Part shown: in pieces, positions 5,093-64,000 of the stretch
Layout: each line of letters begins with the position of its first letter
How positions within the stretch are numbered: position 1 is the stretch's first letter
Source of the DNA: Tautonia marina
GTDB lineage: Bacteria; Planctomycetota; Planctomycetia; Isosphaerales; Isosphaeraceae
DNA: 64,000 bases
Reading direction: 5' to 3'
NCBI RefSeq assembly: GCF_009177065.1
Contig: NZ_WEZF01000018.1
Coordinates: 1-64,000 of the forward strand
Position numbers and translations under genes: made by a program
The notes under the pieces: model-generated
What the model was told of the DNA's origin: nothing
Database searches by the model: none
The model's input: only the letters and a program-made list of their open reading frames with translations

Positions 5093-5627
5093 CTTCTTTG
5101 ATATTCAAATGAATGGTATTGGAACCGCGAGTCACCTCGACCACAATCCCGGAGGTGCTCGTGCTGGTCACCTGCTCGGGTACGAGCACGCGGAAGGACT
5201 TTCCATCCAGGCCGGAAACCGTGGCCTGTCCGCCCTTCGCGTTTTGCCGGATGGACTTCGACACGGCGGCGTCTTTCGCGGCCAGGTAGGCCAGTGGGTC
5301 CTCCTCAATATCGGGCATTGGCACGTCGACACTCGGGTTCTCATCGAGTCCGAGAATTCCAACCCGGTGGAACCCGACCACGGCGCCGTCCCCGGCCGAC
5401 TGGCTCGACATGATGAACGTGCCGTCGGGCATGATCGTGCCCACAGCCTGGGGGCCCGTCGTCCCCTTCGACTCGTCGGGCTCGAACATGACGGTCCCGT
5501 TCTTCAAGGGCTCTCCCTCCAGGGAGACTGTGCCACTCACCCGGGCAAGGTTCAACCCATTGCCTGGACCGCAGCTGGCCAATCCGATCAGAAAGGCCGC
5601 GATGGACAAGACCGTCAAGGAACGCAT
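5070..5627 (-). CDS. Small planctomycete lipoprotein, carboxypeptidase regulatory-like fold
   Basis: The protein has 185 residues and begins with a lipoprotein signal peptide ending in the lipobox LASC at about residues 16-19. Then comes a beta-rich domain with VSGTVSLEGEPLKNGTVMFEP, typical of the transthyretin/carboxypeptidase-regulatory-like domains abundant in planctomycetes. I chose ATG 5627 because the longer open frame adds 90 residues with no signal-like character, whereas this start gives a classic signal peptide. The C-terminus carries a conserved-looking ITGxV-type strand block and ends inside the start of the next gene. The DUF1559 gene lies upstream on the same strand. This pairing of a DUF1559 protein with a small lipoprotein is recurrent in planctomycete genomes. 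The molecular role is unknown. Confidence 0.85.
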   Translation of the reverse strand: MRSLTVLSIAAFLIGLASCGPGNGLNLARVSGTVSLEGEPLKNGTVMFEPDESKGTTGPQAVGTIMPDGTFIMSSQSAGDGAVVGFHRVGILGLDENPSVDVPMPDIEEDPLAYLAAKDAAVSKSIRQNAKGGQATVSGLDGKSFRVLVPEQVTSTSTSGIVVEVTRGSNTIHLNIKEDGSVETN

Positions 5628-5772
5628 CGGATGGGTCCTCACAAAGCTAAGTGATCGCTCAGGTGTCTTCAGGATTTCTCGATCACCGCCGAGGCGGCCG
5701 GCATGGTCTGGCCGTGCCGGCCACCTCGCGATGGCCGGCACGGCGACCGAGAACCATTGGCGAATCGGCCAA

Positions 5773-6819: not shown

Positions 6820-7494
6820 GGAAAAGTTCCTTCCCAGTCTAAGAGGATGCCGATCTGCGAAAGGCACGAAAAGCCTCACCTCGACCATCAACAGATGCGT
6901 TACACAGAAGGAAACACCAGCCGTTTCCGGCCGCGATGGTCAAGTTCGGAATCAGGGCCACCGGCAAGAACGAGGGCAATCATTTTGACTTGTCTTCCGA
7001 ACTGAGCAATCGGTCTGCCTGGGATCATGTCGCCGATCGGGTTTCCATCGGTGCAGGCGTCTCCATCGACAGGACACGAGGCTCGGATTGACCTCGCCCG
7101 GGCCAAGGCGTCCCGATGTCTCATCTTGATGAAAGCGCATCGGATTGGCCTTTGGCGTGAGATCAAGTTAGAGCTCTAACCGATGATGTTTTCTGAAGCA
7201 AGAAGGAAGTTTGAATATTTGGTTTACGATTAGGCCTTCAATCTCTTTTGCCTCAATCGGCTTCAATCAATCTTGAAATTCCAGACAATCAGTGTTTCGC
7301 TGATCACAGAGCGGGGTCAGGCGTCTTACAAACTGCATGTGCATATTGTACGACTTGGCACTTATTCGAATCCTTGTCGGGCCTTCTCCCTGGGATGGGG
7401 CGATGGGTTACGATGATGACGCAGCGATCATCTTGAGGGTGCCATTCTCCTCGAGATCGACCGATCACCACCAGAAACCGGAGGGTGAGCATTC
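6820..7494. other. Divergent intergenic region
   Basis: This 675-bp gap separates the minus-strand DUF1559 gene from the plus-strand DUF1501 gene, so it must hold both promoters. Short open frames occur on both strands but none has recognisable family features. A TTAGAGCTCTAA palindrome lies near 7168-7179 and could be an operator. No RNA gene or IS was recognised. Confidence 0.5.
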
Positions 7495-33917: not shown

Positions 33918-34796
33918 ATGAACGCAAGATTGATCGCGGGCTGCTTGCCCCTTCTATTGCTCCCCTGCCTGATAACCACTGCACAGGAGGTGACACGCGA
34001 TGTTCCGTACGTGCAGAACGGTCACGAACGACATGTCCTCGACATCTACACCCCCGAAGCCGAACGCGACACGGCCCTTCCGGTGATCGTCTGGGTGCAT
34101 GGCGGCGGGTGGCAGGTCGGCGACAAGAGCGACGTCGCCCTCAAGCCCAAGGTCTTGACCGAGCGGGGATTCGTCTTCGTCTCCACCAACTATCGCCTGC
34201 TCCCCGACGTGGACATGGAAACGCTCATGGGCGATGTCGCCAAGGCAATTGGCTGGGTGCATCGGAACATCGCCGAGTACGGGGGTGATCCCGATCGGAT
34301 CGTCGTCGGCGGGCACTCCGCGGGCGCTCAGGTCGCGGCACTCCTGTGTACCAACGAGCGATACCTTGAGGCAGAGGACGTTCCCTTCGATGTCCTCGAA
34401 GGCTGCATTCCCGTCGACGGCGACACCTACGACATCCCCAAAATCATCATGACCGCCGAGCTACGCCAGGCTCTGTACGGCGGTGAGATGTTCACCTTCG
34501 GCCATCGTCAGAAGTTCGGTAACGACCCGAAGAAGCATGTTGATTTTTCAGCGGTGACTCATGTGGTCCGGGACAAGGGAATCCCGCCGTTCCTGATCCT
34601 CTACTTCCCCGGCAATCCCGAAACCAGAGCCCAGGCGCAGTGCCTTGAAACCGCGCTGAAGGAGGCCGACATCCCCGTCACGTCCTTCGGAAAAAGTGAC
34701 AGCAACCACAGCCGCCTGAATAACGATCTCGGAATCCCCGAAGACCCTGCCACGCAAGCGCTTTACACCTTCCTCGACACGCATGTGAAGCGCTGA
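33918..34796 (+). CDS. Secreted alpha/beta hydrolase (esterase/lipase-like)
   Basis: This 292-residue protein has a signal peptide ending near residue 22. It then shows an HSL-type alpha/beta hydrolase core: the oxyanion HGGGW at residues 61-65, the nucleophile elbow GGHSAGA with Ser134, and a C-terminal His in [10 protein letters not shown]. The family includes carboxylesterases and acylaminopeptidase-like enzymes. It follows the PSCyt-DUF1501 pair on the same strand and may deacylate the substrate those proteins process. It converges with the kinase gene at 34864, with a 67-bp gap lacking a clear hairpin. Confidence 0.88.
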
Positions 34797-34863: not shown

Positions 34864-37809
34864 TCAGTCTTTGCGGACTGGGTTCTGGGCAATTGCTCCC
34901 GGAGCGAGGCCGGAACGTTCTAGCCGTGCGCGGCGATCGGCCACCATCGCCTGATACGCCCCCGAACTGGGCGCACGCCGTGACGCCTCCTCGGCCGCCT
35001 CGACAGAACGTCGTAGCGCGTCTCCCAACGCGTGCTCATCAACCGGCTCATGCTGCCAATGATTCTTGGCCACCTGGGTCCAGTACTCGCTGATCACAGC
35101 GAAATAATCCGGTTCATCCCTTGCCTCGGCAGGGATGGCCTCCAATGCCTTCCCGCACCAGGCGACAATCCTCTCCGAATCGCCGACGCACTCCGCAACT
35201 CGACACACAAACGCAAAATCGAGAATCTGCTTGATGTCGACGAGTGTCAGGTTTTCTGTCGGAGGAAGACGCTCGATCGACGTTATGCACAGACTGAAAA
35301 GAGCGGCAATCCGGTCACGCTGGGCATCGGTTTGCGCGTGAGCCCGGGCTTGTGATAGACCACTCAGTACAGCAGATCGCTGATCGATTGTAAGATCACG
35401 CTCATCAAGGATTTTTTGAATCCGATCCAAACAGTCCTGGAACGTCGGCTGCGGTATAGTCTGATGGGTAAGGATTCGCCCGAGTGAGCTGAACGTACCA
35501 ATGTAGAAGGGATCGTATCCGGGCTCCGGTTCGGGAAACCGACCTCGTCGAACGTCGATCGACGTCATCAGTCGGTCGAGAGCGTCCGTCGCCTCATCCA
35601 ACCTGCCCAAGTCGAGCAAGGAAAGAATCATCAATGTCAAGGTGTGGTGAAGTGTCCCGACGACATCGGGATTGCCGGGCGATTCATCGGCTTCGCGTTC
35701 AAACAAAGGAAGGCAAGGCCCCAGCAGCGTGACAATCTCGGCGGCGGTCCGCAGGTGCCTTCGATTTTCGTCTTGATCGCCCGCCAGCTCGATCCCGTAG
35801 AACATGCTCGTGGCCAGCGAGTATCGGTCCCTGAGATTGATGCCTTCTCTTACCAGACGACGACGAATCGCAAGCTCTGCATCGATATCTCCCAGATTCT
35901 GGTAGACGTTCGCCAGGTGGGCCAACGTGTTGTGGTCGTCAGGAGCAGTCTCAAGATGCCCCTCCAGCATCACCTTGGCTTCGATCAGCACTTGGCGACC
36001 GGACTCGTCGCCGCAGGCAATCAGATGAGGCCCAATGATCGTTCGTTCCATGGCAGCACGGCGTTGGTTCAACGTAAGAGGCCGGTCGCCAGGCGGGCCA
36101 TCGCAGAGCTCAAGCGATCGTTTAAGGACCCGGATCGCTTCGGGGAATTCTTGCAGTTTAATGAGCATCTGACCATGCCATTGATACAAGGAGGCTGTAT
36201 CATGGCGCAAGTTGTCGTCCGGGACATGAGCAAGTGCGGCGTCAAGGGTCTCTGAACCCTCTCGGAAAAGGCGAGCTGCTTGTGTCGGCCGCCCCTCGTG
36301 GGCTCTGCGATAGCCGAGTTGATAGACCATCTGGCTCATGGTCCGGAGAAGATCCAGATCATTCGGCCGACTGCGAAGCAGTTCGCGGCAGGCGGGCAGT
36401 GCAGCTTCGAGCTCGTCAAGCGACTCCTCACCCCGAGGTATGCTTGGGTTGTCGGCCCTGCTTACAATCGCAAGTAACCGGCCGGCGGCCTGAAACATCT
36501 GCTCGGCTTGCTGGCGATTGGACTCGGCCTCGGCCCGGCGTCGCTCGGCTTCGCGAGAGCGTTCGAGCGCCAGACTCTCATTGGCGGCAGCCTCGGAGCG
36601 TGCCGCCTCCGCGCGTCCGAGCAAGACCAGCGACGTGGCGCTGGTGAGTGCCAGCCCCATCATCAACGCCGATCCCACCGGATGCCGACGAACGAACCGC
36701 GACGACCGTCGCACCGGCCCCATCGGTCGGGCGAGGATGGTCCGGCCTTCGAGGAATGAATCGAGGTCGTCGGCCAGGGCTTCGGCCGTTGCATAGCGAC
36801 GATGCGGGTCTCGTTCGAGACACTTCAGAGCAATCGTCTCCAGGTCTCTCGGGAGTTTCCTGACGATGCTCCGAGGCAGGGTCGCGCTCCCTTCCAGCAC
36901 CCGGGCCAGTGTCTCCTGAGGAGATGCCTCCTGAAACGGCGGCCGACCGACCAGTAAGCAGTAAAGAATTGCCCCCAGCGCATAAATATCCGCAAATGTC
37001 TCGCTCTTCGCTCCGCTCCCCTGGACCAGTTCGGGGGCCATGTATTCGGGAGTCCCGATCCCGGCAAGGGTCAGCGATCGGGCCGATTCGCCGATCGGCC
37101 GAGCCAGGCCGAAATCCGCGACCTTGGGCCACCAGGCCGAAGTCGGAGCATCGCTCGGCGAATCGATCAGAATGTTCCCTGGTTTCAAGTCGCGGTGAAT
37201 CAAGCCCCGAAGGTGCATATGATGCACCACCCGCGCGACCCGACCGAGCAATCGGGCCGCGTCCCGGAAGGGCATCAACGGTTTGTTGCGTAGGCGATTG
37301 GCGAGGGATCCCCCTGCCACGTACTCCATCACCAGATAGGGATATCCGTCGGTCATCCCCACGTCGTACACCTGCACGGCGTCGGGGTGCCGGACCTGAG
37401 CCGCGGCCCGAGCCTCGGCCAGGCACCAGGCGCGCCATCTCGGGTCGGCCAGGGGACCGCCGGGAAGAACCTTGATCGCCACTTCGCGGTGCATCGCGGT
37501 CTGCCAGGCCTTGAAGACGGTCCCCATCCCGCCCCGGCCTAGCCGGTCGCCCATCACAAACCCTTCGATCTTCGGTGCCAGTCCTACCGGTTCGGCACTG
37601 GTCGCCGCCAGCCCAAAGAACGCAGACGCGTTGTCCGGAAATGCCGTGCCGACGGCCTTCTGCGCCACTCCCTCCATCTGCTCCAGGCAGTTCAGACACT
37701 CCAGAATGTGCAACTGGATGGCGTGAAGTCGTGAATCGACCTGAATCAGATCATCCGGAGCTCTCAGAAACTGGTCGATCTCGGCGGAGGTCGGGCAGGA
37801 CTGGCTCAT
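34864..37809 (-). CDS. Membrane Ser/Thr protein kinase with N-terminal anti-sigma-like Zn motif and TPR-like region
   Basis: This 981-residue protein starts with a short helical domain carrying H34-x3-C38-x2-C41, the spacing of the zinc anti-sigma (ZAS) motif. A Hanks-type kinase domain follows (about residues 83-355): GRGGMGTVFKAW loop, K113, HRDLKPGN with D207, DFG at 232-234, and GTPEYMAPE. A membrane segment lies at about 378-397, then a coiled coil and helical TPR-like repeats to the end. The gene overlaps the ECF sigma gene by 4 nt (ATGA), so translation is coupled. A role in controlling that sigma factor by binding, phosphorylation or both is inferred. All kinase catalytic residues look intact. 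Confidence 0.9.
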   Translation of the reverse strand: MSQSCPTSAEIDQFLRAPDDLIQVDSRLHAIQLHILECLNCLEQMEGVAQKAVGTAFPDNASAFFGLAATSAEPVGLAPKIEGFVMGDRLGRGGMGTVFKAWQTAMHREVAIKVLPGGPLADPRWRAWCLAEARAAAQVRHPDAVQVYDVGMTDGYPYLVMEYVAGGSLANRLRNKPLMPFRDAARLLGRVARVVHHMHLRGLIHRDLKPGNILIDSPSDAPTSAWWPKVADFGLARPIGESARSLTLAGIGTPEYMAPELVQGSGAKSETFADIYALGAILYCLLVGRPPFQEASPQETLARVLEGSATLPRSIVRKLPRDLETIALKCLERDPHRRYATAEALADDLDSFLEGRTILARPMGPVRRSSRFVRRHPVGSALMMGLALTSATSLVLLGRAEAARSEAAANESLALERSREAERRRAEAESNRQQAEQMFQAAGRLLAIVSRADNPSIPRGEESLDELEAALPACRELLRSRPNDLDLLRTMSQMVYQLGYRRAHEGRPTQAARLFREGSETLDAALAHVPDDNLRHDTASLYQWHGQMLIKLQEFPEAIRVLKRSLELCDGPPGDRPLTLNQRRAAMERTIIGPHLIACGDESGRQVLIEAKVMLEGHLETAPDDHNTLAHLANVYQNLGDIDAELAIRRRLVREGINLRDRYSLATSMFYGIELAGDQDENRRHLRTAAEIVTLLGPCLPLFEREADESPGNPDVVGTLHHTLTLMILSLLDLGRLDEATDALDRLMTSIDVRRGRFPEPEPGYDPFYIGTFSSLGRILTHQTIPQPTFQDCLDRIQKILDERDLTIDQRSAVLSGLSQARAHAQTDAQRDRIAALFSLCITSIERLPPTENLTLVDIKQILDFAFVCRVAECVGDSERIVAWCGKALEAIPAEARDEPDYFAVISEYWTQVAKNHWQHEPVDEHALGDALRRSVEAAEEASRRAPSSGAYQAMVADRRARLERSGLAPGAIAQNPVRKD

Positions 37810-38480
37810 TGTTCGTCCCCTGAGTCATCCATCTCGTCCCAAATCTGCCTAAGCATGGCGAGCACGCGTGCTCTGGCTGCTCGAACCGCGCCAGGTGTCT
37901 TGCCCAGGGCCAGCGCGGCCTCGGCCGGTGATCGGCCCTCGATCTGCACCAGCCAGAACGCCTCCCAGGTGTCCCGGCCGAACCGCTCTCGGGCCAGTGC
38001 CTGAGCGCGGGCGATGCGATCGCGAAGCACCCGCCAGGAATGCGGCACGTCCCGCTCGTCTCCCTGATCCTCATCGAGAGATTGGGGATCAACGACTGGC
38101 CAGGCCCATTGCGTCGGGTCGACGGCCATCATCTTCGTCCCCGCCGCCTGAGCGTCCTGGTCACGTTCCCAGAAGTTCAGAATCGTGCTTCGCGTCAGCG
38201 TTCTTAACCAGCCTCGGAACGATTTCGAAGGATCATAGGCAAAGCGCTCTATCGTTCTCGCGAGCCGGATCAGGACCCGCTGGACGATTTCTTCGGTCTC
38301 CGCCTCTCTCAAACCATGCCTTCGGCACTCGTCACGAACGACGGGAAGGCACCACTTCACAAACTCATTCCAGGCCTGAAGATCGGACCAGACCCGAACG
38401 CGCAACAGCAGGCTGGGTCTGGTCCTCGGCTCAGACTTCGGCTCGTCCGACCTCGACGATCCCGGAGACATGTCTGCCAT
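37806..38480 (-). CDS. ECF-type RNA polymerase sigma factor, kinase-associated
   Basis: The 224-residue protein has a sigma-70 region 2 (EIVQRVLIRLARTIERFAYD, then SFRGWLRTLTRSTILNFWER) and a region 4 helix-turn-helix (RSPAEAALALGKTPGAVRAA). ATG 38480 is chosen because it follows GAGGGTGGCGAG. The open frame extends a further 164 codons upstream, but that part has no sigma homology. A long acidic linker separates the two regions, as in planctomycete ECF groups associated with Ser/Thr kinases. Its stop overlaps the kinase start, making sigma and kinase one coupled unit. Target promoters are unknown; the adjacent divergent surface protein is a candidate. Confidence 0.9.
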   Translation of the reverse strand: MADMSPGSSRSDEPKSEPRTRPSLLLRVRVWSDLQAWNEFVKWCLPVVRDECRRHGLREAETEEIVQRVLIRLARTIERFAYDPSKSFRGWLRTLTRSTILNFWERDQDAQAAGTKMMAVDPTQWAWPVVDPQSLDEDQGDERDVPHSWRVLRDRIARAQALARERFGRDTWEAFWLVQIEGRSPAEAALALGKTPGAVRAARARVLAMLRQIWDEMDDSGDEQ

Positions 38481-38870: not shown

Positions 38871-41800
38871 ATGCTCCCGATCCTCCCCCGATCGTCCATG
38901 CCTCAGGCTTCCGCCGGTCGTCGGCTCCCACTCGATCCATCTCGATCGGCACGCCGACGTGTAGCCTTGCAACCCTACCTCGAAGGGTTGGAGCGCAGGG
39001 AGTTACTCACGGACGTTTCGGGCCCTATAGTCACCGACCGCACCTACACCGACCCAAGCGATCCGATTGTCTTTGTTGGAGACACTCGGATTGAGCAGGG
39101 GGCCACACTGACGATCGGTCCAGGAGTTCCGGTCACAATCAATCGCGGGGCCACGCTGACCGTCAACATTGGGGAGTTCGTCGTCGACAACAGTGGAACA
39201 TTCCGGCTTGAGGGTCCGAGGGTCGGCGACTCACGGTACGGGAGAATCGTCGTCGCGGCCAACGGCGTGATGAACGTGACCGGCACCACCATCACGGACA
39301 GCGGCTCCGATATTGCTTCCATCGACGTCCAGAGCGGCGGACGGTTGCGGGCCAGCAACAGCACGATCGACCTGGGCCAAATCATCCTCCGCAATGGCAG
39401 CCGGCTCGACGAAGGCGACCTGGTCGGCAACCGCATCGACTCCTCCCTGAGCATCAATGCCACCGACCTGCACAAGCTCGACGACAACCGACGCTTCCAG
39501 GACATCAACATCAACCCGGGCGGGCTCGGAGCGGGGCAGGCTGCCGAACTCTCCCTCAGGGGCACAGAAACCACGGAATATCTGCGATATACGTTTGGTG
39601 GTTCGTTCGTCATCGATACCGGGGCAGCCTTGACGGTTCGCCCAATGGTCGATGTCCTGATCCAACGTGGTTCGACACTAACCGTCGGTGGGACGCTGTC
39701 CGTCGATCAGGCCAAAACCATCCGGCTTGAGGGTCCGAGGGTCGGCGACTCACGGTACGGGAGAATCGTCGTCGCGGCCAACGGCGTGATGAACGTGACC
39801 GGCACCACCATCACGGACAGCGGCTCCGATATTGCTTCCATCGACGTCCAGAGCGGCGGACGGTTGCGGGCCAGCAACAGCACGATCGACCTGGGCCAAA
39901 TCATCCTCCGCAATGGCAGCCGGCTCGACGAAGGCGACCTGGTCGGCAACCGCATCGACTCCCCCCTAAGCATCAACGCCACCGACCTGCACAAGCTCGA
40001 CGACAACCGACGCTTCCAGGACATCAACATCAACCCGGGCGAATTGCAGTCTGGAGAGGCCGTTGAACTGCGGACGATTGGGACTGAGTCCATCAACGAA
40101 TTGCGGTTTGTGTTTCCGGGGAATTTTTTGATCGGGAATGGTGCGTCGTTGGCTGTCCGGCCAAGCGTTTCGGTCCTGCTTCGTCGCGGTTCGACCCTCA
40201 CTGTGGGCGGGACGCTCTCGGTCGACAATGGTGGGCCGTTCCAGTTTGAAGGGCCAAGGGTGGGCGACTCAAGGTACGGGATCATCGTCGTCGCGGCCGA
40301 CGGCCTGATGGATGTGACGAAAACGTCCCTCTCCGGCTCCACTTCGACCCTCATCCGTGTCCAAGAGGACGGCAGCCTGAGTGCCACCGGAAGCACGTTC
40401 GACGTGTCTCGTCTCGTCCTGGAGGATGGATCGACGGCCTCTCTGCTCTCCAGTTTTCTCAATCATCGACTTGAGGTCCATAGTGGGGCCAACATCGACA
40501 TTACCGGAAATAGCATCGACGTCACGAACGCTGCAGAAGTCTTCGCCATCGGTGACCCATCCACCGAAATCGACATGCGGTTCAACTACTGGGGGACCTC
40601 CGTAACCTCTCAAATTGAGGACAAGATTACTCATCGACCTGATAACGATCCCTCCACTCGGCCGCGTGTGATTTATCAACCATTCCTTTCCAACGCAGAA
40701 GACCCGAGCCCTGGTGTACTCGTCCTGCCTCGGTCCGGCCTCATCACGACTCCCGTCAAGACAGCGACGTTCAGCGTTCGTCTTGAGAGCCAGCCAACAG
40801 AACCGGTCACCATCAACCTGAGCAGCTCAAACCCGTCGATCGGTAATCCGAATGTCGAATCGCTCCTTTTTACCCCCGAGAACTGGAACACTCCCCAGGT
40901 CGTGACGATTGAGAGCACCTCGGAAGATGAAGCCGATTACTCGATCATCACCTCGGCGGCAATCAGTGAGGACGATCTCTACGACGGGCGCATCGTGGCC
41001 GATGTGCTGGTGAGGAATCTCGGCTCCTCGACCTCCAATGTCAGCGTCGAGTCGGATGCCATCGTGGAAATCAACGAGTCGGGCGAACAAGGCTCCTTCG
41101 ACATCCGACTGATTCGGCGGCCGACCGCTCCAGTGACGATCACCCTCACCAGTTCGAACCCGGACGAAGGGGAACTCTCGCAATCGTCCATCACCTTTAA
41201 CACCGACGACTGGGCCACCCCTCGTACGATCACGGTCACGGGCAAGCCTGACTATCAACGCGACGGCGACACCACGTACACGATCAATGGGAGCACCTCC
41301 AGCAACGATCGCATGTTCGACGGCTGGCCGTTTCCGGAGGTCACGGTTGTCAACCGGGACATCGACACCGCTGAGGTGCTCGTGGACAGACCTTCGAACC
41401 TGTCGACCACCGAGGCCGGGGGCACAGCTCAGTTCTCCGTCCGGCTCAGTTCGCGGCCGACGGCGCCGGTCACGGTGAATTTCTCCAGCTCCGACCCGTC
41501 GGAAGGGAACCCCGTCCAACCGTCCCTGACTTTCACGGCAGCGAACTGGTCCACCCCGCAAACCGTGACCGTCCGGGGTGCCGATGACGACAACGCCGAC
41601 GGCAACATCTCCTACACCATCCGCGGCATCGCCACCAGCGACGACCCGAACTTCGATGGGGTCGAGGTGGCCGAATTCCCGGTCGTCAACGTCGACAACA
41701 ATTCCTTCGCGATTCTTGCATCGCCCACCTCGAATCTGTCCACAACCGAGGCAGGTGGCACAGCTCGATTCTCCGTCCGGCTCGGGGCCAGGCCCAGCGC

Positions 41801-43547
41801 CCCGGTGACGGTCGATTTCACCAGCTCCAACACGTCGGAAGGCGTGCTGCCGCAATCGTCTCTCACCTTCACCGAGACGAACTGGTCCATCCCCCAGGAG
41901 ATCACGGTCCGGGGCGTCGACGACGATGTCGCCGATTTCAACATCGTCTACCAGATTTCCGGCCTCGCCCGTAGCACCGACCCTGACTTCGACGGACTCG
42001 CGATGCCGGCCGTTTCAATTGCGAATGTGAATAACGACACAGCCGGCGTCACTGTTTCGCAATCGAACCTGGCCATCAACCGGGTGCCGGGGCCGAACCA
42101 CTCGGGCACCTTCACCGTCGCGCTCAACTCGCAACCGATCGGCAATGTGACGTTTGCGATATCCTCTGAGAATTCGTCCCAGGCCGAAGTTGATGTCAGT
42201 TCCATCACCTTCACCACAGCCAACTGGAACGTCCCGCGCACCGTGACCGTCACCGGTGTCTATGATGGAACACCTGCCAATCCGGCACCGTTCCCGGTGG
42301 TCGTGGAAGTCTCCTCGTCGAACGATCCGAACTACCCGGTCGGCACCCGTGAAACCGTTCAGGTCACCGAATCTCGACAGCAAATCGAGGTCGAAGGGGA
42401 CTACGACGGCGACGGTCGGGCCGACCTGGCCCTGTATCACTTCGACGAGGACCGGGGGGTCGGTGTCTTCTCGATCCGCCGCTCCTCCGACGGCCAGACC
42501 CAACAGATCGACCTCGCCGACATCGGACGCAACTCCGTGCCGATCTCCGGCGACTTCGACGGCGACGGCATCACCGACGTCGCCGTGAGTGACCCTTACG
42601 CCATCGTCGGCGATGGTTCCGTGCCGAATGCCACGGGCTGGGTTTTCTTGCTCTCAGGGAGCAACAACAATCGGCGAGATTTCCGATTTGGAGCCCCCGG
42701 CACGCTCGACCGCCCCGCTCCGGCCGACTTCGACGGCGACGGCATTACCGACATCGCGACCTTCCGCGCCAGCAGCGATCTCACCCCTGGGGCCGCCGAG
42801 TGGTTCATCCTTCCCTCAGGAGGGGGATCCGCGTTCCGAGTGGCGTTCGGTGCACCGGGCGGCCTGGACCTGCCCGCCCCGGCCGACCTCGACGGCGACC
42901 GTCGGGCCGACATTGTCACATTCCGCCCCGAACGGACCGCAGAGGACATCGCCAATGGAGTACCCGATGCCGCACAGTGGTTCGTCCTCCCCTCCAGCCT
43001 CAATGACCTGGAGTTCAGCAAGCGAGACGGGGCTTTCGGCTATACATTCGGTGCCTCGGGCAATGCGGACCAGCCCTCAGTCGCCGACTTCAACAACGAC
43101 GGCCGCGCCGACATCGTCGCTTTCCGATCAGTCAGCGACCTCGCCCCCGGCTTCGCCCAGTGGTTCACCTTGCCCTCATCGGGCGGTCCGACAACGTTCG
43201 CGAATGGTTTCCAGGTGACCTATGGCTCTGCCGGCGAGATCGCCGCTGTCGCTGATTACGACGGCTACGGCCGGCCCAGTTACACGGTCTTCAATTCCCT
43301 GACGGGGGACTGGACCATCGACGCGGCCAACACCAACGGCCAACCTTTCGGGAATCCCCGAACCGTCCGTTTCGACCCGACGGGACAACGTGGGGTTCCC
43401 GTGCTTAGCCCCTTGTGGTTCCGCATTGAGGCGACACGGGGAGAGGAAACTGCCAGCGCGATTGCAAGCGCTCGGCACTCAAACCGCCTTCAACTGCTTC
43501 CATCGCTGGTTGATCAACTATTATCCGATCTCGCCGCAGACTCCTGA
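38871..43547 (+). CDS. Giant surface/extracellular repeat protein (beta-helix-like repeats, Calx-beta-like repeats, FG-GAP)
   Basis: The 1558-residue protein has the planctomycete N-terminal secretion motif LEGLERRELLT (about residues 37-47). Three parallel-beta-helix-like modules follow; the first two carry a 107-residue block that is almost identical (39202-39522 and 39721-40041). Next are about five Calx-beta-like repeats, each with a STTEAGGTAQFSVRL-type opening and VTV...SLTFTxxNWSTPQTVTV core. The C-terminal part has FG-GAP/VCBS motifs (DYDGDGRADLALYHF, DFDGDGITDIATF, DLDGDRRADIVTF, DFNNDGRADIVAF). It ends in a short polar tail. A cell-surface or secreted adhesive role is inferred from domain type. 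It is divergent from the ECF sigma gene. Confidence 0.9.
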   Translation: MLPILPRSSMPQASAGRRLPLDPSRSARRRVALQPYLEGLERRELLTDVSGPIVTDRTYTDPSDPIVFVGDTRIEQGATLTIGPGVPVTINRGATLTVNIGEFVVDNSGTFRLEGPRVGDSRYGRIVVAANGVMNVTGTTITDSGSDIASIDVQSGGRLRASNSTIDLGQIILRNGSRLDEGDLVGNRIDSSLSINATDLHKLDDNRRFQDININPGGLGAGQAAELSLRGTETTEYLRYTFGGSFVIDTGAALTVRPMVDVLIQRGSTLTVGGTLSVDQAKTIRLEGPRVGDSRYGRIVVAANGVMNVTGTTITDSGSDIASIDVQSGGRLRASNSTIDLGQIILRNGSRLDEGDLVGNRIDSPLSINATDLHKLDDNRRFQDININPGELQSGEAVELRTIGTESINELRFVFPGNFLIGNGASLAVRPSVSVLLRRGSTLTVGGTLSVDNGGPFQFEGPRVGDSRYGIIVVAADGLMDVTKTSLSGSTSTLIRVQEDGSLSATGSTFDVSRLVLEDGSTASLLSSFLNHRLEVHSGANIDITGNSIDVTNAAEVFAIGDPSTEIDMRFNYWGTSVTSQIEDKITHRPDNDPSTRPRVIYQPFLSNAEDPSPGVLVLPRSGLITTPVKTATFSVRLESQPTEPVTINLSSSNPSIGNPNVESLLFTPENWNTPQVVTIESTSEDEADYSIITSAAISEDDLYDGRIVADVLVRNLGSSTSNVSVESDAIVEINESGEQGSFDIRLIRRPTAPVTITLTSSNPDEGELSQSSITFNTDDWATPRTITVTGKPDYQRDGDTTYTINGSTSSNDRMFDGWPFPEVTVVNRDIDTAEVLVDRPSNLSTTEAGGTAQFSVRLSSRPTAPVTVNFSSSDPSEGNPVQPSLTFTAANWSTPQTVTVRGADDDNADGNISYTIRGIATSDDPNFDGVEVAEFPVVNVDNNSFAILASPTSNLSTTEAGGTARFSVRLGARPSAPVTVDFTSSNTSEGVLPQSSLTFTETNWSIPQEITVRGVDDDVADFNIVYQISGLARSTDPDFDGLAMPAVSIANVNNDTAGVTVSQSNLAINRVPGPNHSGTFTVALNSQPIGNVTFAISSENSSQAEVDVSSITFTTANWNVPRTVTVTGVYDGTPANPAPFPVVVEVSSSNDPNYPVGTRETVQVTESRQQIEVEGDYDGDGRADLALYHFDEDRGVGVFSIRRSSDGQTQQIDLADIGRNSVPISGDFDGDGITDVAVSDPYAIVGDGSVPNATGWVFLLSGSNNNRRDFRFGAPGTLDRPAPADFDGDGITDIATFRASSDLTPGAAEWFILPSGGGSAFRVAFGAPGGLDLPAPADLDGDRRADIVTFRPERTAEDIANGVPDAAQWFVLPSSLNDLEFSKRDGAFGYTFGASGNADQPSVADFNNDGRADIVAFRSVSDLAPGFAQWFTLPSSGGPTTFANGFQVTYGSAGEIAAVADYDGYGRPSYTVFNSLTGDWTIDAANTNGQPFGNPRTVRFDPTGQRGVPVLSPLWFRIEATRGEETASAIASARHSNRLQLLPSLVDQLLSDLAADS
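39202..40041 (+). repeat. Near-identical internal tandem repeat in the surface protein gene
   Basis: Two 321-bp blocks (39202-39522 and 39721-40041, offset 519 bp or 173 codons) differ at only about three positions, all silent or conservative. The DNA between them has diverged. A third, diverged module follows at about 40240-40560. Such high identity at DNA level points to recent duplication or gene conversion, with the potential for length variation. Confidence 0.85.
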
Positions 43548-43617: not shown

Positions 43618-46263
43618 TCACCTCGCTCCCTCTCCCCTACCCTCTGGGTGCACGCCAACCCCTGCCCAATGGGACGAACGAAGAAGGAGGTGCTCGTTCT
43701 CTCGTTCGATCAGTTGACCATAGAGTTCCAGGAACACCGCGTTCGTCCAGGCGAAGCCCGATTCGTTCGTGGTGTCGCCAAATCGAATGTCAAGGTCCGA
43801 TTCCCGGCGAACCACGTCGTATTTCTCAAAGGTTGCCCGATGCTCGGCGAACTCGTCGAGCACCATCGAGAGAAACGCGACGCAGATCCGGTCAGCCACC
43901 TCATGGTGACCATAGCGCCGCAATCCTTGAACCGCGATCAGGTGCATTGGCGCCCAGCCGATCGGAGCATCCCACTGGCTACCACTCTCATTGGTACTGG
44001 TTTGCAACCCGCCGGGCCGTTCAAAAAGGTGCAAATTTGCCACAACCCGATCGGCCTGACCTGCGTCAGCAAGCCCGGCCCAGAGTGGATAGAAAGTCGT
44101 CACGAAGGGATATCGTCCCAGCTTTTTTTCGACGAACTGATAATCATAGTACAACCCATCTTCTTCGTCCCACATCAGTTCGTTCATGGTCGACTGCCTC
44201 TGTTTCGCACGACCAATCCAGCCCGCCGCAGCTTCTTTGCGATCGAGTATTATCAGGATTTCGCCCAAATCCGACTCCATCACGAACAACAACGCATTGA
44301 GACAAACCGGGTTGTAATTCACGACCTCAACCCCGAACGGACCGAATCGATCCGTCGGGTTGAAGCCCGATTCTCGCATGGAGCGATCGCCCTGATAGAA
44401 CCGCGAAGTTAACTCTCCGTTCTGGAAGTAGGCTTGGACATCGTATTCCCTGACAAGATATTTCTCGAAGTATTCGGAAACACGATCGTAATGTGTCCTG
44501 CCGAGCCGATCCCGTTCCTTCGAGATCACCTCGGGCGCCGGCCCCCAACCTGCATCGTAATAGCGCGAGAGGCCCGTATCCGACACCAGATGCGGCGCTT
44601 CGGTCCAGTAGCGGTGATACGCTTCAATTCTGGGAACGGATTCCTCCAGCCAGGCCCGAGCCCTGGTGGGATCCCGACGTGAAAACTCGTCGTAGACTCC
44701 GAGAATCATCCGAGTGAGAAACGGCGGCTGGGAACGTGTTAGATAATCGGTATGATTGGCGTTTAGAATCTTACCGTAGTGATCGATCTCGTAGAGGAAA
44801 TTGTCGACCATCTCCTTGGCCAGATGAACGTTGCCGGAGCGGAGAAGGCCAAGCTGAATGAAGTAGCTATCCCATCCATACATCTCCTGAAACCGCCCGC
44901 CAGGAGCAATGTAGGCATGGGGAAGGAAGAGTGGACCAGGCTTCTGGGCCACTTCTGATGGAATCGGACGAGGAGCAGCCTGACTGGTCCGTCTCAAGGT
45001 ATTCCATCCACGATCGATCTCAAGAATCAGCGAACGCAACTCCGAACGTCGCCGAATCTGCTCCATCCGATCGACCAGTTGGCCTTGCACAACCACCGCG
45101 GCTCCCGCCACGAGACTGAGCGATGCAAATCCGAGGATCAATCCAAGGGCCGCCGCCGAAGGCCGACGGCGGGCCCACCGCCAGGCTTTGACCCAGGGTC
45201 CAACTGGTCGGGCCTGGATGGGAAGACCGGATCGCCAGCGAACCAGGTCCGCAGCCAACTCCTCTGCCGAGTCGTAACGATTGGCCGGATCTTTCTCCAG
45301 GCATTTCAGGCAAATCGTCTCCAGGTCACGATCCACTCGCCCGTTGATTCGACTCGGAGGCTTGGGTGGTTCTTCCCGGACCATTGACAGCGTCTCGAGC
45401 ACCGTAGAGCCACAAAAGGGCGGCCCTCCGGTGAGTAACGCATACAGGATGACTCCGAGTCCGTACACATCGGTCGCCGTGGTCACAGCTCCACGATCAC
45501 CCGACGCCTGCTCCGGAGCCATGTACGGCGGTGAACCACAAATATCTCCCGATCGGGTCAGGTCCGAGGCGTCCTCGATTCGCTTTGCCAGACCGAAGTC
45601 GGTGATATGCGGTTGCCCGTTCCCATCAAGCAGAATATTCGACGGCTTGAGATCGCGGTGCAAAATCCCGCGTCGGTGGGCATACTCCACAGCTCTGGCG
45701 ATCGTGATCATCAGTTCGGCGGCGGCCTGAGGATCGTCTCGAAATTGAGATAAACGCTCGGCCAGATCTCCCCCACGGAGTAGCCTCATGCTGAAATAAG
45801 GATTCCCTTCGTACTCTCCGATTTCATAAATCGGGACAATGTTCGGATGATCAAGTCCAGCAATGACCTCAGCTTCGGTCCGAAATCGCAAGAGTTCCGA
45901 TTCGGATGCAGGACTCCCAGATCGGATCAACTTCAACGCAACCAACCGCCCCAGACTGAGTTGACGAGCCTCGTGCACGATTCCCATACCGCCTCGGCCG
46001 AGGAGGTCAAGTAACTCATAGTCGCCGAAACGTTGCTCCGGATGAACTTGACTCTCTTCCCTTTGAGTCGGCTCCTTGAAATCGCCAGCGACCTCATCGG
46101 CAGTCCATGAGCACGTTTCCTCCCCATCTCCGTCAGATCCAACCCGATCCGACAGGGTATCATCGAGGAGAACCTGCCTGACCACACAGGAGGGGCAAAG
46201 AGGACCAAGAGCATCGGATGAGAGAATCGCCCCACACCGGGGGCAAGGCACGTGCGGAATCAT
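43618..46263 (-). CDS. Membrane Ser/Thr kinase fused to a GH37 trehalase-like domain
   Basis: This 881-residue protein has three parts. A zinc-ribbon (C7, C10, C23, C26) precedes a Hanks-type kinase domain (about residues 80-345): [11 protein letters not shown] loop, K111, HRDLKPSN with D204, DFG at 222-224, and [11 protein letters not shown] membrane helix follows (about 371-392). The last 440 residues are a trehalase-type (GH37) domain with both trehalase signatures, [14 protein letters not shown] (454-467) and [10 protein letters not shown] (763-772), and EKYD at 813-816, where the catalytic base is expected. In the block that holds the catalytic acid of E. coli trehalase (ESGWDFSSRW), this protein reads [10 protein letters not shown], so Asn635 replaces Asp. 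The trehalase part is predicted outside the cytoplasmic membrane. It may be a trehalose sensor rather than an enzyme. Confidence 0.88.
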
Positions 46264-46633: not shown

Positions 46634-47527
46634 CTACTTATCTTGTTTGGTAGAGAGCGCTTCGAATCCTGCCGCGACATCAAGCAATTCCTCAGTAATC
46701 GCAAGCTGACGGCGCTGCTGGTAAAGCATGGTGAGTTCGACAATACGTTCTTCGATATTTCGCTCGGCCCCCTGCATCGATGCGAGTCGGCTCGCGTTTT
46801 CGCTGGCCAAGGACTCGGCGAAGGCTCGATAGAGCGAGACAAACAAATACTCATGAACAAGCGAGGAAAAGAGGCGGTCCCGGTTCATGGTAAACATAGG
46901 AACCTGATTCGTCGGCCATTTCCGTTCCTGCAACGTATGAAGCCAATGGTCATCAATGGGCAAAAGATGCGTTGTGCGAGGACGATACGAGGCTCCAGAA
47001 TGGTGCTCCGCATAGAACAGCAACACCTGATCGATTTGCCATTCGTCTCGCCAGCGGTCAATTCTCAGAAGAAGATCCTGTACAGCGGGTGTGATCCCGG
47101 AAGTTGAGCCAGGAACCGATGCGGTCCCTTCGAGCGGTTGCCCTGCATCTTCGAGCCGCCCTGCGATGCGATGACCGACAGCGAAAAGTGCTCGTCCTTC
47201 ACGATCGACTCCAGAGGCATCCATTTCGTCGATCGCATGACGGGCCACGTCGTCGTTGAGTTGGCCGCACATCCCTTGATCCGATCCGAAGACAACCGCC
47301 CCGAGGTTTCGACGGGGGGCATTGCGCGTCACGACCCGTGATCGCGGAACTTGCCGAAGCACAATTTGCAAACCCATCTCGACCGCTCGACGATACTGAT
47401 CGAGCGAACGTTCCGCCTCCTCATACTGACGAATATTCACGACCGCAAGTGCTTTCATTGTCTTGACAACCGAGTATAGATCTTCCGCGGTCGCCAGTTT
47501 GTGCTTCAGGATCTCGGTTGTCTGCAT
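46634..47527 (-). CDS. atpG: N-ATPase F1 subunit gamma
   Basis: This 297-residue gamma subunit forms the central rotor shaft of the ATPase. It has the N-terminal helix with LYSVVKTMKALAVVNIRQYE, the Rossmann part with VVFGSDQGMCGQLND, and the C-terminal helix with SLYRAFAESLASENASRLAS followed by AERNIEERIVEL. Length is within the family range. It is the last gene of the operon and starts 3 bp after the atpA stop, so translation is coupled. Sequence is more divergent than housekeeping F-ATPase gamma, as expected of N-ATPases. Confidence 0.93.
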   Translation of the reverse strand: MQTTEILKHKLATAEDLYSVVKTMKALAVVNIRQYEEAERSLDQYRRAVEMGLQIVLRQVPRSRVVTRNAPRRNLGAVVFGSDQGMCGQLNDDVARHAIDEMDASGVDREGRALFAVGHRIAGRLEDAGQPLEGTASVPGSTSGITPAVQDLLLRIDRWRDEWQIDQVLLFYAEHHSGASYRPRTTHLLPIDDHWLHTLQERKWPTNQVPMFTMNRDRLFSSLVHEYLFVSLYRAFAESLASENASRLASMQGAERNIEERIVELTMLYQQRRQLAITEELLDVAAGFEALSTKQDK

Positions 47528-59437: not shown

Positions 59438-62400
59438 TCAGGGTTCGACCCCGATACCCATCCCGTCCCACGACGCTTCCAGGCGGTCGAGTTGCCAAAG
59501 GCGCAGAGCGTGCTCCCCTTCGACCGCGACGGCCAGCGATCGGCCGTCGGGAGCGAAGTCGAGGTCCCGAATCCCCCCACTTGCCAGGCCGAGAGTGGCC
59601 ACATGCCGGAGCCTCGGGGCGTCGATCCGCCAGAGCCGAACGGCCCGATCAAACCCTCCCGAGGCCAGGGATCGGCCATCCGGAGCGATCGCTAGACACG
59701 TGACACCTCCAGGATGAGCGTCCTCGACCGCCCGGAACGGAACCCCGTCGGGAAGCGGAATCGTCATGAGCGACCCGCCTGAGGTTCCTGAGACAACCAG
59801 GCCGCCCTCCGGCCGAAGCGCCAGGGCCAGGATGGGACCATTTGCGTGGTCCCATTGCCGAATCAGGACCAGCTCACCCGCTTCGAGCCGAAGCAGGCGG
59901 GTCAGGCCGTCACGTCCCCCGGCCACAATCCAGGGCTCGGCCTGGGTCAGACTGGGAAGCCGGAGCATTCCCCGGACAATCTCCGCCCCCCGATCGCGCC
60001 AACCAACCAGCATTTCGTGGCGATCCAGATCCCAGCACCCAATCTCCGTCTGATCATCGAACAGTGCCCAGATCCGCCGGCCGTCTGCAGAATACTCCAA
60101 CGTCGAAGGCAGCCTCAGGCTGATTCGCTCCGGAGGCTTCTCCGTGCCGATCTCCCAGAGAAAGACACCGGCCCCTGCCCCACAGAATGCCACGGAATCT
60201 CCTTCTGGAGCCACGGCCATTCCCAGGGGTCCGCCATCCTTCGCACCTTCGGTCGGGAGATCAATCCCGGCAAGCCGCTCCGATCCCTTGAGACTCCACA
60301 AATCGACCCTCACCAGATCGTCCGATCGGCCGAGCCGAGCCAGGGCCTGGCCACCCGGAACGAAGCCCAGGGCCTCGACCTCCGTTTCATCGAGGCCAAC
60401 CGCCTCATACGCCGGGTGATGCGTCAATTCCACCCGAGTCGCCCTGCCCTTGCCGGTCGCGACCATCCAGTCCCCGTCCGGAGCGAAGGCCACGTCGATC
60501 AGGCTGTATCCGGTTCCCTCGGCCTCGTGGATGGAACCGACCATCTGCCCCGTATTGGCGTCCCAGAACTTGATCCGCCGATCGTCATCGTGTGAGCTGG
60601 CACTGACCAGCAGCGAGCCGGACGGGTGGAAGTTCAACCCGCTGAGCCCGTGGCGATGAGCGGCCGACACCAGCTCCGGGTCGGTCAGACGACGAACCAC
60701 CTTCAAGCGATCACTCGAAACCAGGGTGATTGCTTCGAATCCTCCGGCGGCAATCATCCGGCCATCCGGGCTCCAGGCCAGCCGATTGGTCCCGACCTCC
60801 GGCCCTTGCTCGACCGACTCCAGCGTCTCCGGGTTGTGCCGATGTAACCGACTTCCCACCACACTCGCCAGGGCCCCCGATCGACCAATCGCCAGCGTTC
60901 GCACCGGCCCATCGCCGTGGAACTCGGCCACCGGAGCCTCGGGAGCACGTCGGGGAGCATCAAGGTCCCAGCGACGAAGCACCCCGTCGTCTCCGCAGGT
61001 GACGATCGACGGAGCGTCCCCTCCGGACGCAAAGGCCAATCCAAGCACATCCCCCTCGTGAGCCGACCAGACCTGTCGGTAAGGATCGTCCTGGTCAAGG
61101 TCCCAGGCATGCACCCGACCACTTCGCGTTCCGACGGCCAGCCAACGCCCCTCGGCATCGAAGGTCATCTTCCGAACTCCGTCTTGCCCCCCGTCACGAA
61201 TCTGATCTTTCAACGACGCCGGAAAGGAGAACCGGCGACGGATCATCCCGCTCGGCCAATCGACCAGCACCACAGAGCAGACCAGGAACCCCTGCGCCTT
61301 GAACTCCCCCAGCGCGAGGGTTTGCCCATCAGGAGCGAAGGCGAGGCAGCTTGGATTCAGGCCGGGCAACAGGTCGTCGGCGGCTTTGAAATCGAACGTG
61401 GCAAGGCGTCCGGCGGCGATGCTCCGGAGCAAGGCGGCCCCCTCCTCGTCTCCTTGCGGACGAAGCTCGGCGGCCTCGGCCAGTTCGACGCTTGCCTGCC
61501 AGGTCCATCCGGGCCTGGGGGTTGCCGACCGCTGGCGGAGGCGGTCGAACAGGGCGTAATACCGTTGCAATCGCTCGGCCTCGCGCGCTGCCTGAGCGTC
61601 TCGATCGGCCTCTCGGGCCGCGGCCAGCGCCACCCCCCGATCAAGCCTCGCCTGCTGACGATCCAGCAAGACCTGCGCGATGAACCCCAGACTTCCCAGC
61701 GCCACGACCAGGGCCGCCAGGATCCCGGCCACCCAGTTCTGATGCCGTCTTGACCAACGACCGAGGCGGATCCCCCACGGATCACGACGGGCCGAGACCG
61801 GCTCATCGGCCAGCCAGCGTTCCAGGTCATCGGCCAGGGCACGGGCCGTCGGGTAGCGGTCCGACGGCTCGAAGGCCATCGCCTTTGCACAGATCGCGTC
61901 CAAAGACGGGTCGATCGACCGATCTCGGGACCGAGGCGAAACCACATCGCCCGCCTTCACCCGCTCCAGGATCTCCTTCGGCTCCGTCCCCTCGATGGGA
62001 GGATACCCGGTCAAGAGGGTGGAAAGCGTTGCTCCCAGACTATACACATCACTCGCCGGCCCGATCCGATCGGGATCACCGATCGCCTGTTCCGGAGCCA
62101 TGAAGTGGGGCGTGCCTACGGCCACGCCGGGCACGGTCTGTTCGGTCGACCCCGACCCTCCTCCAAACAAGGCACTGGGCGGAGGACCGATGGCGACAGT
62201 GGCGTCGATCCCGGTCGATTCCGATGCGACAACCCGCGCCTCGCCCTCCTCCACCCCGAGGTCGTCGAGCGCCCGGGCCAGGCCCCAGTCAACCACGAGG
62301 GTCTCTCCGTGCGGCCCGAGCAAGATATTCGAAGGTTTCAGGTCACGATGGATCACCCCCCGACTGTGCGCGTAATCCACGGCATCGCACACCGCCAGAA

Positions 62401-63163
62401 ATCGGACAATCAACTTTCGCAGGCGCAAGGCCCGGTTTCTCGGAGACCGGGGCCGCCCCTCGCTCCGGTGAAACCGCTCGATCGCATCACGGAGCGACTC
62501 GCCCCGAACAAACCGCATCGTGTAGTAAGGACGGCCATCCTCATGCCGCCCCAGCGCGTAGACCGGCACGATCCCCGGATGCTCCAGATTGCCCGTGATC
62601 CTCGCCTCAAGCAGAAATCGGGTCCGACTGGACAGGTCATCGGCGTATTGAGCCTGAATTTCCTTCAACGCCACGTCCCGATCCAGTTCCGTATCGTACG
62701 CGACATGGACCTCTCCCAGCCCTCCCCTGGCATGCAACCGAATAACCCGAAACCGGCCATCGCCAAGAGCCTTTGCCGAACGCTCCTCCTTGCGGATGCC
62801 CAAGCCTCCCGGAATCACGGTACCGTCCGGGTCAAGAGTCGCAGGCTCTAAATCAATCACATACGAACATGGATCGCCTTGATCCGTTCCCGAGGCTTCT
62901 TCGCTGGTCACGGTCGAGAGTGCTCGGAGACTCTGCCTCGGATCGTTCCCATGTTGCGAAAGATGCAAACGCATCAATTGCTCAACCGCGGCTTTTTTCT
63001 GCGCATCGAGCGAACCGAGGTCGTCAAGCACCTCGGCAATAAACCGGGAACGGTCGGTCGCCCACTGCTTGAGCGCCGCGTCCAGCTCTGAGATTGAGAT
63101 CAAGCCCGACCGCGCGGCAAGCGTAGCGAACAGAAGCGATCGGTCATCATCGGCGATCGACAT
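59438..63163 (-). CDS. Membrane Ser/Thr protein kinase with WD40 repeats
   Basis: From ATG 63163 the product has 1241 residues. An N-terminal helical domain (residues 1-80) precedes a Hanks-type kinase (about 138-530): loop HARGGLGEVHVAYD, K167, HRDLKPSN with D274, DWG at 292-294 in place of DFG, and GTPHFMAPEQ. A membrane helix follows (about 545-565), a short coiled coil, and then a WD40 beta-propeller with repeats such as GRVHAWDLDQ, DGVLRRWDLD, RIKFWDANTG and RAVRLWRIDA. The kinase is cytoplasmic and the propeller outside, by inference. A DWG motif is common in planctomycete kinases and does not imply inactivity. Substrates are unknown. Confidence 0.9.
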   Translation of the reverse strand: MSIADDDRSLLFATLAARSGLISISELDAALKQWATDRSRFIAEVLDDLGSLDAQKKAAVEQLMRLHLSQHGNDPRQSLRALSTVTSEEASGTDQGDPCSYVIDLEPATLDPDGTVIPGGLGIRKEERSAKALGDGRFRVIRLHARGGLGEVHVAYDTELDRDVALKEIQAQYADDLSSRTRFLLEARITGNLEHPGIVPVYALGRHEDGRPYYTMRFVRGESLRDAIERFHRSEGRPRSPRNRALRLRKLIVRFLAVCDAVDYAHSRGVIHRDLKPSNILLGPHGETLVVDWGLARALDDLGVEEGEARVVASESTGIDATVAIGPPPSALFGGGSGSTEQTVPGVAVGTPHFMAPEQAIGDPDRIGPASDVYSLGATLSTLLTGYPPIEGTEPKEILERVKAGDVVSPRSRDRSIDPSLDAICAKAMAFEPSDRYPTARALADDLERWLADEPVSARRDPWGIRLGRWSRRHQNWVAGILAALVVALGSLGFIAQVLLDRQQARLDRGVALAAAREADRDAQAAREAERLQRYYALFDRLRQRSATPRPGWTWQASVELAEAAELRPQGDEEGAALLRSIAAGRLATFDFKAADDLLPGLNPSCLAFAPDGQTLALGEFKAQGFLVCSVVLVDWPSGMIRRRFSFPASLKDQIRDGGQDGVRKMTFDAEGRWLAVGTRSGRVHAWDLDQDDPYRQVWSAHEGDVLGLAFASGGDAPSIVTCGDDGVLRRWDLDAPRRAPEAPVAEFHGDGPVRTLAIGRSGALASVVGSRLHRHNPETLESVEQGPEVGTNRLAWSPDGRMIAAGGFEAITLVSSDRLKVVRRLTDPELVSAAHRHGLSGLNFHPSGSLLVSASSHDDDRRIKFWDANTGQMVGSIHEAEGTGYSLIDVAFAPDGDWMVATGKGRATRVELTHHPAYEAVGLDETEVEALGFVPGGQALARLGRSDDLVRVDLWSLKGSERLAGIDLPTEGAKDGGPLGMAVAPEGDSVAFCGAGAGVFLWEIGTEKPPERISLRLPSTLEYSADGRRIWALFDDQTEIGCWDLDRHEMLVGWRDRGAEIVRGMLRLPSLTQAEPWIVAGGRDGLTRLLRLEAGELVLIRQWDHANGPILALALRPEGGLVVSGTSGGSLMTIPLPDGVPFRAVEDAHPGGVTCLAIAPDGRSLASGGFDRAVRLWRIDAPRLRHVATLGLASGGIRDLDFAPDGRSLAVAVEGEHALRLWQLDRLEASWDGMGIGVEP

Positions 63164-63420
63164 GGATGAGCCGGGGTCCGGGACTGCCGCTCGCGGAGGA
63201 GCGATCGACCGATCTTGAAGACTCGGACACGCCAGCGAACCGCAACCGCGCCCTGCAGACAATTTCCGTCGCTGGACGCCACGCGATTCTCGATGATAGT
63301 CTATCATCCCAGAACAGATGATTCGAGTTGACGAAGCCGATCCTGGCCGGCGTTGTGGGTCGGAGGGGGCGGCCTCGTCGCCTCAAGGGCCGGTCTCATC
63401 AAGGCCGGACACAAACTCCG

Positions 63421-64000
63421 ATGGTTCAGATTCAATTGCCGGATGGTTCCGTTAAGGACTTTTCCGAAGGCGTCCGTCCCCGAGAAGTCGCGGCTTCGAT
63501 CGGTAAACGGCTGGCCGACGCCGCCATTGCCGCCGTCGCCAACGGTACGATCGTTGACCTCGATCGCCCGCTGGAGGTCACGACCGAGGGACCAGTCTCC
63601 TTCCGGGTCTTGACTCCGAAAGATCCCGAAGCGCTCGACGTTCTGCGCCACTCGACGGCGCACGTGATGGCCCGCGCCATTCTCCGCATCTTCCCCGGGG
63701 CCCGGCTCGCCTTCGGCCCGACAACCACGAACGGCTTCTACTACGACATCGACCTGCCCGATTCCCGGACCATCTCCGAGGACGACTTCGAGGCCATCGA
63801 AGCCGAGATGCGGACGATCATCCAGCAGGCCGAGCCCTTCGAGCGCTTCACCCTGCCCGTTCCCGATGCCCGGCAATTCTGCGAAGACCTCGGCCAGCAG
63901 TTGAAGGTCGAGCACATCGATCAGGAATTGCACTCCTACGGCACCCTCTCCTTCTACCGCCAGGGAGAGTTCGTTGACCTCTGCCGGGGGCCTCATATCC
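63421..64000 (+). CDS. thrS: Threonyl-tRNA synthetase, N-terminal part (cut by window end)
   Basis: Starting at ATG 63421, the frame is open to the window end (193 codons). It encodes the TGS domain ([17 protein letters not shown] and [16 protein letters not shown]), then the editing/SAD domain with [11 protein letters not shown] (the HxxxH metal site) and [24 protein letters not shown], just before the window end, is the conserved cysteine block. The enzyme charges tRNA-Thr. About 440 more residues, including the catalytic core, lie beyond the window. No T-box leader was seen in the ~110 bp upstream. Confidence 0.95.

Follow-up and report, generated by a model that had tools for sequence, protein, structure and literature searches.

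How is an extracytoplasmic function (ECF) sigma factor controlled when the gene that follows it encodes a protein kinase, and could that kinase itself be the anti-sigma factor? We examined this question for a gene pair of the planctomycete Tautonia marina, which lies in a 64-kb stretch of DNA (hereafter the window) from a genome of 7.07 Mb in 80 contigs. On the minus strand, a 224-aa ECF sigma factor gene with regions 2 and 4 (37806–38480; assigned from PF04542, TIGR02937 and the start of a homologue) is followed by a 981-aa Ser/Thr (Hanks) kinase gene with an ATG start (34864–37809; open reading frame and Pfam). Sequence comparison suggests that this kinase is probably a membrane-anchored anti-sigma factor, with a Hanks kinase inserted between the sigma-binding domain and the membrane helix. 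The architecture is phylum-wide, heavily duplicated and tied to one ECF clade, a breadth that the preliminary description of the locus had underestimated.

Organization of the sigma factor–kinase pair

The two genes overlap by 4 nt, as had been described, with the sigma stop and the kinase start sharing the sequence ATGA (37806–37809, minus strand), and translation of the pair is probably coupled through this overlap. In the family sample defined below, 22 of the 80 same-strand downstream pairs have a possible start codon that would produce the identical 4-nt overlap. We set the sigma start at the ATG at 38480, where the homologue in locus L072 likewise opens with MAD; the longest mechanical open reading frame would open upstream, at a TTG at 38972. 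Among the genes adjoining the sigma–kinase pair, none is a separate anti-sigma gene.

From its N-terminus, the kinase consists of a zinc domain, the Hanks kinase domain, one hydrophobic helix and a weak TPR region, all encoded on the minus strand. The zinc anti-sigma-like (ZAS; class I anti-sigma) domain, delimited by a family profile and a structural model, covers residues 5–53 (37651–37797). The preliminary description had noted an Hx3Cx2C motif ahead of the kinase domain, and its three putative ligands are found exactly there: H34 (37710–37708), C38 (37698–37696) and C41 (37689–37687). To these we add C5 (37797–37795), not listed before, which by its conservation is probably the fourth ligand.

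The protein kinase domain itself (residues 87–347; 36769–37551; PF00069, 170 bits) has intact catalytic residues, namely VAIK at 110, HRDLKPGN at 205, DFG at 232 and APE at 258. A hydropathy peak predicts a transmembrane helix at residues ∼378–400 (36610–36678), beyond which the C-terminal region (34867–36609) shows weak matches to sub-threshold TPR families at residues ∼537–579 and 610–643. This TPR-like region is predicted, from an inferred topology, to be an extracytoplasmic sensor.

Conservation of the zinc motif with the sigma clade

We collected relatives by sigma similarity alone, disregarding the kinase, from 45 genomes of the family Isosphaeraceae, 32 of which had a match. All family counts rest on the 110 sigma loci among the matches listed: 97 had a kinase within 1200 bp, 6 had one at a distance of at least 1200 bp, and 7 had no detected kinase. 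The preliminary description had tied its proposal to conservation of the three metal ligands in orthologues, and they are kept in 95 of the 97 kinases within 1200 bp of a clade sigma (100/103 when all loci with a kinase at any distance are included). Compared with 1 of 56 other kinases in the window's own genome, this frequency rejects a chance origin of the motif (Fisher p ∼5e-38, relatedness ignored).

The motif-bearing pairs with a separation of ≤ 1300 bp number 97 and come from 29 genomes. A Cys lies 22–30 residues upstream of the His in 97/98 domains, usually 24 or 25 residues away (29 in the window), giving a C-H-C-C ligand set across the domains. Because the sequences in alignments A2 and A5 were selected for the three ligands, the invariance of those columns was not counted as evidence. 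The alignment also retains the kinase residues K, D, K and N together with DFG in 97/97 kinases, so that pseudokinases, suggested by a regular-expression search that found 22/97 without HRDxKPxN, were rejected. The kinase lies downstream of the sigma gene in 80 pairs, divergent in 16 and convergent in 1; since gene order varies, and in other families the sigma gene can follow the kinase gene, the link is not that of one frozen operon.

Among the seven kinase-less sigma loci, an adjacent zinc-domain open reading frame was found at L141, and L151 and L092 gave profile matches. The frame at L141 (4525–4882, plus strand) encodes a 119-aa zinc anti-sigma-like protein; it adjoins a clade sigma gene at a locus without a kinase and is either a stand-alone form or a truncated gene. 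The matches at L151 and L092 may likewise come from genes that are cut or broken.

Within the window's genome, we examined 61 of 62 kinase places, one having been dropped because no locus was retrieved. A same-strand ECF gene lies ≤ 2 kb upstream of 20 kinases, and only 3 of these carry Hx3Cx2C; we therefore rejected the idea that the motif is general to planctomycete ECF-linked kinases, as 17 of the 20 pairs lack it. The remaining 41 kinases include three with the pattern (C26, C24 and C20). The C26 kinase adjoins a convergent sigma gene, and the C20 match, the sole one among the 56 other kinases of the genome, is a zinc ribbon. The C24 pair (L101; G000:C24:10500-27000) is convergent, with the ZAS kinase and a clade sigma 5.2 kb apart, and is possibly a split pair.

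The five genuine motif kinases pair with exactly the five sigma factors of the genome that the window sigma matches at E ≤ 1e-12. Among adjacent pairs, the motif is present in 4/4 kinases beside a clade sigma and in 0/17 beside other ECF sigmas (p 1.7e-4). The clade profile detects nine sigmas of the 17 motif-free pairs, at 19–42 bits only, whereas sigmas adjoining ZAS kinases score 163–243 bits in the phylum sample described next. At E ≤ 1, zf-HC2 has nine matches in the genome, five beside an ECF sigma and four in kinases of this class.

Distribution across Planctomycetota

The zinc-domain profile has matches in 222 of 246 Planctomycetota genomes. The best 30 phylum loci place the domain in a kinase in 17 cases and in a protein without a detected kinase in 13, and an ECF sigma lies within the 1.5-kb flanks of 10/17 and 11/13 of these, respectively. 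When wider stretches were considered for the other seven kinases, a clade sigma immediately followed the kinase in four cases and lay 5.2 kb away in one (C24).

A further named set comprised 28 loci from Isosphaeraceae, Gemmataceae, Planctomycetaceae and others, with genomes that partly overlap those of the family set. The motif is present in 22 of the 27 loci that have a kinase. Three planctomycetal ECF loci (L240, L242 and L244), two of them with kinases, lie on contigs labelled as Candidatus Kuenenia stuttgartiensis metagenome-assembled genomes, possibly through a binning error.

At L246, from a Gemmataceae metagenome-assembled genome, a single open frame (4359–7245, plus strand) encodes sigma region 2, apparent membrane helices, a putative sensor segment and a kinase; read by eye, this frame lacks the zinc domain. 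If the frame is real, a sigma tied to its own kinase might need no docking domain.

Identity of the zinc domain

The spacing of the motif had been likened to that of ZAS domains, and profile searches bear this out: sequence comparison places the N-terminal domain among the homologues of class I zinc anti-sigma domains. A profile of 98 N-termini retrieved six PDB sequences at E ≤ 1e-4, namely DdvA (4e-8), a CHAT-domain protein sharing the DdvA N-terminus (4.2e-7), RslA (3hug; 3.4e-6), ChrR twice (1.3e-5 and 1.4e-5) and RsiW (8.8e-5), and the only further row was an unrelated protein at E 0.61. Pfam zf-HC2 matches 84/98 domain members at E ≤ 0.1. In NCBIfam, RsrA matches 39 of 72 members at E ≤ 0.01, a general anti-sigma model 32 and ChrR 13; the models matching more than one member are these three and the anti-sigma-E family. 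Aligned by hhalign to five zf-HC2-matching genes that stand beside ordinary ECF genes in the same genome, the domain gave a probability of 96.6% and E 6e-10.

According to the account of class I domains in PMC7406223, the zinc subset is defined by Hx3Cx2C across helices 2 and 3, and these domains hold ECF sigmas by contacts of helix 1 with region 4 and of helix 4 with region 2. An AlphaFold2 model of the window domain has helices at residues 8–16, 19–24, 26–37 and 39–53, and H34-C38-C41 is predicted to span helices 26–37 and 39–53, corresponding to helices 2 and 3. The model of a member with a longer linker, L239, has helices at 9–16, 22–34, 36–48 and 54–75, and here too the motif bridges helices 2 and 3.

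The sigma factor

The window sigma matches TIGR02937 at 56.7 bits (cut-off 42.9) and PF04542 at 42.4 bits, above its cut-off, with PF08281 slightly below its own. It keeps an acidic region 2.2 (REAETEEIVQ), with E at both checked positions, so the replacement of the acidic DAED of region 2.2 by Ser/Thr that marks ECF43 is absent. Of the 97 sigmas that have a motif-bearing kinase as partner at ≤ 1300 bp, 78 are acidic at both checked positions and 95 at the second. Because clade sigmas keep these residues, unlike EcfP, their binding to RNA polymerase should not depend on phosphorylation; expected to be active when free, they would need an inhibitor.

Proposed mechanism and alternative explanations

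We propose that the N-terminal zinc domain binds the product of the sigma gene immediately upstream and retains it at the membrane. The TPR-like outer domain would receive a signal that activates the kinase, which would then phosphorylate either the sigma that it holds or a part of itself, the anti-sigma domain or the linker, and so release the sigma. Judged from sequence, zinc binding, sigma binding and sigma inhibition by the N-terminal domain are likely. Signal-triggered phosphorylation is a plausible release step, favored by an intact kinase in every pair. The preliminary suggestion that the kinase may itself be the anti-sigma factor has gained domain homology and ligand conservation, and we infer it with good support. 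More tentatively, Planctomycetota may possess phylum-wide, much-duplicated one-protein switches that unite receptor, kinase and anti-sigma factor, in which the domain would keep the sigma next to the kinase responsible for its release in cis.

Several observations weigh against this interpretation. The association has exceptions: two of the 97 family kinases beside clade sigmas (L174 and L176) lack the motif, as do 5/27 kinases of the named set (L237, L241, L242, L246 and L247), and 2/17 ZAS kinases in the phylum sample have no clade sigma that we found, with one more sigma lying 5.2 kb away. L241 still matches the domain profile despite lacking the motif. The window's own N-terminus, taken alone, has no Pfam or NCBIfam match and represents a divergent member, yet it matches a profile built without itself and its nearest relatives at 17.4 bits and E 1.4e-5 in a search of 61 sequences. 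Structural comparison adds to the doubt, as a fourth helix appears in the window model only as a low-confidence segment at 61–66, and Foldseek gave no match with the window domain model. With a better member's model, anti-sigma factors filled 18 of the 19 top rows, the best at E 0.7 and none significant.

Sigma and zinc-domain distances correlate at r 0.34, or 0.145 with the kinase domain held constant, which is above all 500 shuffles. The sigma–kinase correlation is stronger, at r 0.50, or 0.41 with the zinc domain held constant. Such values would be expected if the two genes are inherited together, and they give the zinc domain no special place; as proof of contact between sigma and domain, coevolution was rejected because the correlation is too weak.

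Among the alternatives, the zinc domain might only dock the sigma to the kinase, with phosphorylation switching the sigma on, as PknT does for EcfP and PknS for EcfK. Kinases of ECF43 do activate their own sigmas by phosphorylation, kinase catalysis is conserved in 97/97 pairs, and T20 of the sigma is invariant in 109/109 aligned letters, with four further positions at least 75% Ser/Thr. The conserved Thr/Ser at positions 20–23 may, however, be a mere helix cap, the solved relatives of the domain are anti-sigma factors, and region 2.2 keeps acidic residues here that EcfP lacks. The acidic motif disfavors ECF43-type activation as the sole control, and we consider docking alone unlikely. The domain could instead sequester the sigma and release it by proteolysis or a conformational change, leaving the kinase to serve other targets. 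Regulated proteolysis is a common release route for membrane anti-sigma factors, which lines of published abstracts also describe, and ZAS kinases without a nearby sigma exist. That the kinase is catalytically intact throughout the 97 pairs, and that phosphorylation-driven release from an anti-sigma factor has been reported, in trans, with PknB, make such a division of labor very improbable.

A metal or redox switch, in which the zinc domain responds to oxidants or metals and regulates the kinase while the sigma is its substrate or a mere neighbor, draws on zinc anti-sigma factors described as losing zinc under oxidative stress, on RsrA having the largest NCBIfam count and on the upstream Cys being conserved as a fourth ligand. 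Against it, the domain tracks the sigma clade rather than kinases at large, and in RsiW and other membrane anti-sigma factors the role of zinc may be structural, as discussed in PMC7406223. We regard this explanation as quite improbable. The preferred reading, that of a sigma-inhibiting domain fused to the kinase that would release the sigma, fits both the clade-specific distribution of the domain and the acidic region 2.2.

Neighboring genes in the window

Directly upstream of the sigma gene and divergent from it lies a gene for a 1558-aa FG-GAP protein with repeated stretches (38871–43547, plus strand; Pfam), which is a candidate target of the sigma. On the other side, an esterase-like gene (33918–34796; window annotation) is convergent with the pair, on the strand opposite the kinase.

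Two further kinases lie on the minus strand of the window, both assigned by Pfam. One is a Hanks kinase–trehalase fusion (43618–46263; PF00069 at residues 82–334, PF01204 at 401–847) with two CxxC pairs at its N-terminus, adjoining an ATP synthase gamma-type gene (46634–47527). The other is a 1289-aa WD40 kinase, which together with an overlapping 230-aa gene occupies 59438–63996. That 230-aa gene (63304–63996) has no Pfam match and overlaps the WD40 kinase by 4 nt, like the sigma–kinase pair.

Comparison with known systems

The domain described here resembles those of RsiW, ChrR, RsrA, RslA and DdvA in matching the same profile, in carrying Hx3Cx2C on helices 2 and 3 and in having an upstream Cys, and its gene stands beside an ECF sigma, as do those of class I zinc anti-sigma factors. 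Unlike in those factors, the domain precedes a catalytically intact Hanks kinase. In the main text of the survey of ∼11,000 anti-sigma domains (PMC7406223), neither of the two occurrences of the word "kinase" concerns such a fusion. Searches of open-access papers showed no description of the fusion as a conserved, sigma-specific system, and it may be mentioned in the ECF reclassification (NAR 2021), in Jogler 2012, in the work on sigma phosphorylation (Nat Microbiol 2020) or in Mahajan 2020.

As reported for EcfP/PknT of Vibrio parahaemolyticus and EcfK/PknS of Xanthomonas citri (ECF43), the sigma adjoins a transmembrane Ser/Thr kinase. As outlined in section 3.4 of PMC8999054, ECF43 sigmas usually have no acidic motif in region 2.2, and phosphorylation in that region activates them; by contrast, the sigmas studied here keep that motif and their kinases carry an anti-sigma domain. 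The same section notes that kinase-linked ECF groups outside ECF43 retain the acidic motif and may follow a different, uncharacterized mode. The sigmas studied here form a large class in Planctomycetota, and an anti-sigma domain within the kinase offers a testable answer to how they are controlled; if correct, a one-protein switch would explain that control. In addition, the architecture would offer a ready model for circuits that lead from receptor to sigma within one protein.

The planctomycete groups ECF59, ECF61, ECF62 and ECF217, predicted to be kinase-regulated, likewise place an ECF gene beside a Ser/Thr protein kinase, and the published descriptions on which this comparison rests name no anti-sigma domain in those kinases. 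Kinase-controlled sigma release has a parallel in the reported zinc anti-sigma factors and PknB of Mycobacterium tuberculosis, where the kinase is a protein distinct from the anti-sigma factor; in the present case the two would share one polypeptide. The parts are already known, and what appears to be new is their combination as a conserved sigma-specific system.

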